Origin: Gemmatimonadota bacterium
GTDB lineage: Bacteria > Gemmatimonadota > Gemmatimonadetes > Gemmatimonadales > GWC2-71-9
DNA length: 36,022 nt
Assembly: GCA_003222205.1 (NCBI GenBank)
Contig: QHVC01000010.1
Coordinates: 1-36,022 of the forward strand
Direction of reading: 5' to 3'
Positions 1-385 of this stretch are shown in pieces. Made by a program: the position numbers and the translations under genes. The notes under the pieces were generated by a model, which made no database searches, was not told the origin of the DNA, and was given only the letters and a program-made list of their open reading frames with translations. Numbering within the stretch: the first letter of the stretch is position 1; every line of letters begins with the position of its first letter.

Positions 1-19
1 CTCCGGCGTCTCGGCGATT

Positions 20-106
20 GGATGGGTGTCCGAGTGGCTGAAGGAGCCGGTCTCGAAAACCGGTATGCCCGTAAGGGCATCGTGGGTTCGAATCCCACCC
101 CATCCG
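20..106 (+). tRNA. tRNA-Ser (anticodon CGA)
   Basis: An 87-nt class II tRNA. The 7-bp acceptor stem pairs GGATGGG at 20-26 with CCCATCC at 99-105, with G106 as discriminator base. The T arm is GTGGG-TTCGAAT-CCCAC at 82-98. The anticodon loop CTCGAAA gives anticodon CGA, which reads the Ser codon UCG. The long variable arm (ATGCCCGTAAGGGCAT) is typical of tRNA-Ser. CCA is not encoded. Short GACGCCGA-like repeats flank it on both sides in opposite orientation. Confidence 0.97.
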
Positions 107-116
107 CTATTATCAA

Positions 117-240
117 GACGCCGAGACGCCGAGACGCCGAGGCGCCGCGTGGACGTCGAGGGGCGAGTAGTTAGGATTCTCCTGGCGCCTCGATTCATCC
201 TCACCGTCCACTTAGCGTCTCAGCGTCTTGGCGTCTCGCC
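117..240. repeat. Inverted short-repeat spacer between the two tRNA-Ser genes
   Basis: This spacer holds no gene. At 117-140 there are three perfect tandem copies of the octamer GACGCCGA. The right end (about 212-240, GCGTCTCAGCGTCTTGGCG) is an imperfect reverse complement of that array. Between them GTGGACG (near 149) faces CGTCCAC (near 205), so the spacer is an imperfect palindrome. Related sequence lies just before the first tRNA (about 5-16, GGCGTCTCGGCG), after the second tRNA (about 341-374) and after groEL (about 35455-35484). Confidence 0.7.
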
Positions 241-244
241 GATG

Positions 245-331
245 GGATAGGTGGCCGAGTGGCTGAAGGCACGCGCCTGGAGAGCGCGTAAACGGGTAAC
301 CGTTTCGTGGGTTCGAATCCCACCCTATCCG
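245..331 (+). tRNA. tRNA-Ser (anticodon GGA)
   Basis: An 87-nt class II tRNA. The acceptor stem pairs GGATAGG at 245-251 with CCTATCC at 324-330, and G331 is the discriminator. The T arm GTGGG-TTCGAAT-CCCAC (307-323) is identical to that of the upstream tRNA-Ser. The anticodon loop CTGGAGA gives GGA, reading UCC and UCU. The long variable arm (AAACGGGTAACCGTTT) confirms the serine class. CCA is not encoded. The two serine isoacceptors are probably co-transcribed. Confidence 0.97.
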
Positions 332-385
332 TAACTACTGGACGCACAGACGCCGAGGCGCATAGACGCCGAGGAGCATGAATTC

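Follow-up and report, generated by a model that had tools for sequence, protein, structure and literature searches.

The spacer between the two tRNA-Ser genes at the start of the analysed DNA (36,022 nt, hereafter the window, which is contig C109 from base 1 in a source genome of 2.97 Mb and 217 contigs) holds a long hairpin element at 119-241, and with a probability of about 0.5 we read it as a gene-less member of a dispersed hairpin family in which a short tandem unit, the octamer GACGCCGA in this case, is repeated in inverted arrays. The family would belong to a widespread kind of element that brackets a PF05635/TIGR02436 gene (for the 23S rRNA intervening sequence protein, IVP or S23), of which contig C96 would carry the genome's own gene-bearing relative, and the protein would act in trans in a RAYT-like manner. 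This reading is based on direct observations: the arms are homologous, copies are dispersed, IVP genes of many phyla have inverted arms, both arms changed jointly at one site, the Rhizobium IVP gene evolves under purifying selection, and dispersed arrays tend to have the unit of the IVP gene resident in the genome. It is also possible, as a more tentative generalization, that IVP/S23 four-helix-bundle proteins are the trans-acting partners of pan-bacterial inverted short-tandem-repeat hairpins, forming a two-part, REPIN/RAYT-like system without transposase, in which each protein would be tied to its own unit of 7-10 nt, likeness of the arms would be maintained at the DNA level and the dispersed members would be gene-less hairpins, the window element among them. 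The features of the window are summarized in Table 1.

Table 1. Positions of tRNA genes and repeat arrays at the start of the window
Feature	Position	Strand	Basis
Partial arm-type array preceding tRNA-Ser(CGA), near contig end	4-16	-	sequence, inverted-repeat search
tRNA-Ser (CGA)	20-107	+	confirmed tRNA call, Rfam scan
Three perfect tandem octamers GACGCCGA, left arm	117-140	+	sequence, inverted-repeat and pattern search
Main hairpin element with GACGCCGA-type octamer arms, conserved inner part (GTGGACGTCGAGG...) and gene-less loop	119-241	no strand	inverted-repeat search, fold, homology to arms of the IVP-bearing element
Right-arm octamer units (GACGCCAA / GACGCTGA on minus strand)	214-238	-	sequence, pattern search
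tRNA-Ser (GGA)	245-331	+	confirmed tRNA call, Rfam scan
Lone arm-type array past tRNA-Ser(GGA)	341-372	+	inverted-repeat and pattern search

A Rfam scan of the window returned the two tRNAs and nothing else. As a preliminary description of this DNA had noticed, octamers lie before, between and after the two genes: GGCGTCTCG occurs at 5-13 and 230-238, AGACGCCG octamers stand in tandem at 116-145, and more octamers are found at 341-369. These repeats are real, since GACGCCGAGACGCC, with up to 2 mismatches allowed, is found 9 times in the window where 3.05 matches would be expected, a count of 9 being reached by 0 of 100 shuffles, and 8 of the 9 fall within 1-375. The three perfect tandem octamers are as described there, and the replication slippage proposed for them is plausible given that the octamers are perfect and that related arms show tandem periodicity. 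The left side of tRNA-Ser(CGA) is truncated by the contig end, and the array past tRNA-Ser(GGA) has no counterpart at the matching place in the relative G018 (L369).

The same description had each tRNA bracketed by inverted copies, with a precursor RNA folding into a long stem that has the tRNA as its loop. Shorter complementary pairs that span a tRNA are present (4-16 with 127-139, 13 nt, 100%), but the longest inverted pair lies within the tRNA spacer (arms 119-161 and 199-241, 43 nt, 79% complementary, 37 nt between). Folded as RNA, the spacer 108-244 gave -80.2 kcal/mol (z -9.3) with a stem at 119-241, and its minus strand gave -76.6 kcal/mol (z -7.1); in the fold of 1-400 the spacer hairpin was again present, and the outermost partial arms paired with each other around both tRNAs. 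Folding the precursor, as had been suggested, yields the spacer hairpin and not a stem around a single tRNA, and a tRNA as the loop of a stem from its own flanks was rejected because neither the inverted-repeat search nor the fold preferred it. The preliminary description is right in its sequence observation and not in its main interpretation. The inverted arms of the window element carry a tandem unit within the 7-10 nt range of the IVP-associated kind, and contig C109 has no PF05635 match, so that the element is a gene-less form. At the corresponding tRNA-Ser pair of relatives, hairpins with other units were seen by eye in G014, G024, G030 and G034, an array on one side only in G018, and spacers of 12-67 nt with no array in G026, G028, G029, G032, G037, G038 and G039.

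A degenerate 17-mer of the octamer had 27 matches in the source genome against 2 for the reversed pattern, and the 27 formed 18 clusters, in agreement with the alternative proposed initially, a dispersed recombining element. The genome-wide octamer search relative to tRNAs that had been asked for thus gave dispersed clusters, but 16 of the 18 lie away from tRNAs and a tRNA-specific repeat was rejected on this ground; the supposed preference for tRNA borders is weak, with 2 of the 18 clusters at most 200 nt from a tRNA (a zone of 0.53% of the genome), one of them the window element itself. Several copies of the family are hairpins that by eye share the inner part of the window element. Covariation was modest in an alignment of seven members picked by eye (five from the source genome and two from G018): 5 of 34 pairs changed on both sides, with a covariation term of 0.35. 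A stricter survey of 739 kb of the source genome, whose settings the window hairpin itself falls below, counted 23 periodic inverted-arm clusters against 10 direct ones, with many other units. The window element is thus gene-less, intergenic, dispersed and made of inverted short-unit arrays, as the Xanthomonas repeats discussed below are. Many gene-less hairpins of the source genome (L262-L301) have other units such as GTCGGACG and GCGGAAT, and no IVP gene with those units was seen. At L374 (G018:C277), GACGCC-type arms surround by eye a different, membrane-protein-like ORF, a point against a two-part system, and at L001 of the source genome an ORF end similar to that ORF lies ahead of an array. 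Escherichia coli genomes searched with the arm gave no match. Viral contigs with the exact 17-mer provided 18 stretches, and no viral carrier of the element is claimed because a clear inverted partner was seen only for L072 (score 40), and the other 17 score 15-25.

On contig C96, two arms about 500 nt apart surround a four-helix-bundle ORF that scores against both PF05635 and TIGR02436. The arms of this element (L086/L014) are homologous to those of the window element, with 7 mismatches in each of the two ungapped alignments of 44 and 38 columns (84% and 82% identity, respectively). PF05635 has 10 matches in the source genome, including a weak one (27.5 bits), and when upstream flanks were compared with reverse-complemented downstream flanks, 8 of the 10 own pairs beat every mismatched pair, L090 and L093 remaining below the mismatched maximum. 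The weak match, L093 (G000:C149:2584-2706), is truncated and poor in arms, and is possibly a decayed element. Arm units of IVP genes within one genome are unrelated. The paralogues of the source genome are old, with nucleotide similarity in 2 of 45 pairs, and no movement of elements was seen directly, both of which count against a two-part system; recent transposition of an IVP gene was likewise not seen in this genome, and the closest within-genome pair found was in G049, at 76%. The arms of IVP loci matched the gene-less hairpins of the source genome at a score of at least 32 for 4 of its own 9 against 4 of 26 from relatives, a difference that is not significant (p = 0.17) and likewise counts against a two-part system.

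The flank comparison was extended by scoring each upstream flank against the reverse complement of each downstream flank, with the 99th percentile of mismatched pairs as cut-off. For the source genome and its relatives, 39 loci were obtained, being those that the searches returned as loci and not all matches, and 38 of them were testable (L120 lies too near a contig end). The own pair exceeded the cut-off at 33 of these 38 loci and was the best match at 34 (mean score 47.9 versus 20.6 for mismatched pairs), with no locus above the single highest mismatched pair (127). For named genomes of many phyla, the best 80 of 588 confirmed relatives of a six-sequence alignment were taken, of which 76 were testable (L193, L201, L225 and L228 were dropped); here 52 loci exceeded the cut-off of 37 and 48 ranked first, against 7 of 76 in the direct-orientation control. 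Flanks of the same loci shifted 600 nt outwards never reached the cut-off (0 of 69, maximum 26). In the Xanthomonas-like family, PF05635 was present in 54 of 119 genomes, and 23 of the 29 loci read scored at least 37 (L380, L381 and L385 scored below 30). Over the three sets together, 121 of 143 loci had arms scoring at least 33, and 102 of these 121 strong arms showed a lag identity of at least 0.6, compared with 8 shuffled arms (period: 87 at 7 nt, 11 at 8 nt and 4 at 9-10 nt). Most of the arms are tandem arrays of a 7-nt unit that differs between loci. The association between inverted arms and the IVP gene is strong; the role of the protein is what we infer. Elements were noted between the genes nuoC and nuoD at L188, L218 and L207, in three genera of Rhizobiales, and between carA and carB at L219 and L199, in two further proteobacteria, the gene names being read from flanking peptides.

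The site between nuoC and nuoD was followed by searching 60 Rhizobium genomes with the nuoC-IVP-nuoD stretch, where gene names again come from the flanking peptides. Some genomes have the whole element and others, where read, a spacer of about 96 nt. In the 20 genomes with a full IVP gene, the arm units fall into the classes AGGCAAT, AGCGAAT and AGTGATT, and upstream and downstream arms have the same class within a genome, cross-class scores being mostly low; the own arm scores of L337, L340 and L343 are weak (24-27). Distances of IVP and nuo sequences were correlated (r = 0.39, a value attained by 0 of 2000 permutations), and the site is therefore largely inherited vertically. Purifying selection acts on the Rhizobium IVP gene: the 50 pairs out of 210 for which dS was usable have a median dN/dS of 0.095, with L336 and L353 left out because of gaps. 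Precise empty sites were rejected in Rhizobium, and no insertion boundary is readable, because the element-less spacers differ and are not clean, which also counts against a two-part system.

Arrays away from the IVP site were compared with the unit of the resident IVP gene in two groups. In 26 chosen Rhizobium genomes (17 with IVP and 9 without), heptamer pattern matches occurred in 18, and among the matches listed, clusters off the IVP site had the unit class of the genome's IVP arms, the classes following clades; arrays were still present in 5 of the 9 IVP-less genomes, which counts against a two-part system. In 56 chosen Xanthomonas-like genomes, the median count of GGGAWTC pairs was 155 in the 17 genomes whose IVP arms match, 4 in the 19 whose arms are of another type and 0.5 in the 20 without IVP, with p = 9e-5 and 2e-7, uncorrected for phylogeny. 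Second IVP genes with GGGATT-type arms occur in G130 (245 copies) and G146 (5 copies), and after reassignment of these two the medians, counted by hand, were 155 (19 genomes) versus 3 (17 genomes). Exceptions exist in both directions: G156, whose arms match, has only 4 copies, G203 and G193, whose arms are of other types, have 229 and 101, and the IVP-less G148 and G140 still have 49 and 25, the latter two again counting against a two-part system. Dispersed gene-less arrays thus tend to be built from the same unit as the arms of the resident IVP gene, a match that phylogeny confounds.

Selection for RNA pairing should make G.U mismatches outnumber A.C mismatches on the sense strand. At 97 IVP loci with strong arms, taking the strand of the IVP gene as the transcript strand, we counted 118 G.U and 140 A.C mismatches (p = 0.19), that is, no bias, and RNA pairing was rejected as the selective force. 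Because of this lack of G.U excess, arm pairing is attributed to the DNA level, where arm likeness seems to be kept via arm-to-arm copying or selection on DNA hairpins. We know of no catalytic function for IVP, again a point against a two-part system. The Avd profile hit two of three IVP proteins at E = 2.5e-06 and 2.3e-04, below the curated cut-off, and the solved relatives of IVP are 2gsc and 2rld. The resemblance to Avd also appears in part of PMC10053308, and passages of PMC4990558 describe the Xanthomonas IVP protein as a pentamer and the role of PF05635/TIGR02436 as unknown. A figure legend in an article on CRISPR discovery (PMC10910872) mentions the 23S rRNA IVP, and tandem arrays beside IVP genes might, as a guess, be mistaken for CRISPR arrays.

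If the two-part reading holds, the arms would fold out as DNA hairpins when single-stranded, slippage would alter the number of units, and strand switching between the arms would copy a new unit across to the opposite arm. As a relative of Avd, the IVP pentamer would recognise hairpins of its own unit and may let them persist or spread in trans, by analogy with RAYT and REPINs. A purely mutational origin, in which slippage and strand switching in quasi-palindromic arms make and homogenise intergenic hairpins without a dedicated protein and IVP genes are only frequent neighbours, accounts for arm likeness without RNA-strand bias, for arrays that persist without any IVP gene and for the gene-less many-unit hairpins of the source genome (23 clusters versus 10 direct in 739 kb). 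We regard it as rather doubtful, as it explains neither the unit match nor why IVP genes in particular are bracketed while regions 600 nt away are not. Insertion of IVP genes into the loops of pre-existing hairpins, so that the arms are a target and not part of the element, is in our judgement unlikely: the unit match would follow automatically, and the different gene between the GACGCC arms of L374 in G018 and the unrelated units of IVP genes within one genome would fit, but at the Rhizobium nuoC-nuoD site gene and arms stay together while both arms switch unit, and the gene-less spacers read there contain no empty hairpins.

Action at the RNA level, with a transcript stem directing RNase III processing of a tRNA precursor, as initially proposed, or of an IVS-like transcript, could draw on the very stable spacer fold, on the location of elements at operon junctions and in tRNA spacers, and on the Coxiella 23S rRNA IVS with its S23p gene, whose excision by RNase III is described in part of PMC4990558. 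It is nevertheless very improbable, since G.U pairs are not in excess over A.C mismatches, the minus strand folds nearly equally well, and in several relatives the tRNA-Ser genes are separated by a short spacer that has no hairpin; the precursor reading is left unsupported with the best stem in the spacer and the G.U test negative. An ordinary transcription terminator or spacer insulator would suit a strong hairpin between genes and can practically be set aside, because no T run, as expected of an intrinsic terminator, follows the stem in the sequence beyond 241 and because related elements occur within operons, at the nuoC-nuoD junction.

The PF05635/TIGR02436 family is common, and short inverted tandem arrays, on whose origin there is no agreement, are widespread in intergenic DNA; should family and arrays prove to be connected, either could be used to study the other. 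The two-part reading, if true, would explain how long hairpins persist and switch unit on both sides at once, would make rRNA intervening sequences one special location of a general element, and would bring the GGGAATC repeats of Xanthomonas, orphan IVP genes and rRNA IVSs under one heading.

Among known systems, REP/REPIN sequences with RAYT consist of a mostly single-copy gene between inverted repeats and of dispersed gene-less copies of the repeat type. IVP loci are alike in that the gene is flanked by inverted copies of a dispersed repeat, but they differ in that the gene is PF05635/TIGR02436 and not a Y1 (HUH) tyrosine transposase, and in that the arms are short tandem arrays. As described in sections of Rehm et al. 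(2015, PMC4692102), the GGGAATC heptamers of Xanthomonas form intergenic 7-nt tandem arrays, and two genomes have 70 and 75 inverted pairs; in the Xanthomonas-like family the arms of IVP genes consist of this heptamer too, whereas the unit of the window element is an octamer. The terms 'S23' and 'four helix' have 0 occurrences in the main text of that paper. According to parts of Warrier et al. (2016, PMC4990558), the Coxiella 23S rRNA IVS has an IVP gene in the loop between its terminal inverted repeats, and tandem heptamers (GACAGAT) upstream of the gene, and it resembles the present elements in both respects; however, it lies inside 23S rRNA, whereas the window element is gene-less and lies in a tRNA spacer, Rfam recognising only two tRNAs in the whole window, and the other IVP elements examined lie between protein genes. 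In the Nostoc trnL intron, the P6b stem is made from one of two heptamer motifs, and the motif is swapped while the hairpin is kept (PMC4476775, in part); this stem differs in lying within a group I intron, with no IVP gene named in that part of the article. The TAACTGA repeats of Beggiatoaceae are dispersed intergenic heptamer arrays for which the author, in part of PMC4679880, considers mobility or a repeat-binding protein, and they differ in being almost all direct, not inverted. In the open-licence PMC literature, preprints excluded and articles covered in part, we found no paper linking IVP genes to inverted short tandem arrays, and one may exist. As far as the parts of these sources cited here describe them, the GGGAATC pairs, the Coxiella IVS, the Nostoc stems and the TAACTGA repeats each show one side of the link between IVP and arrays.
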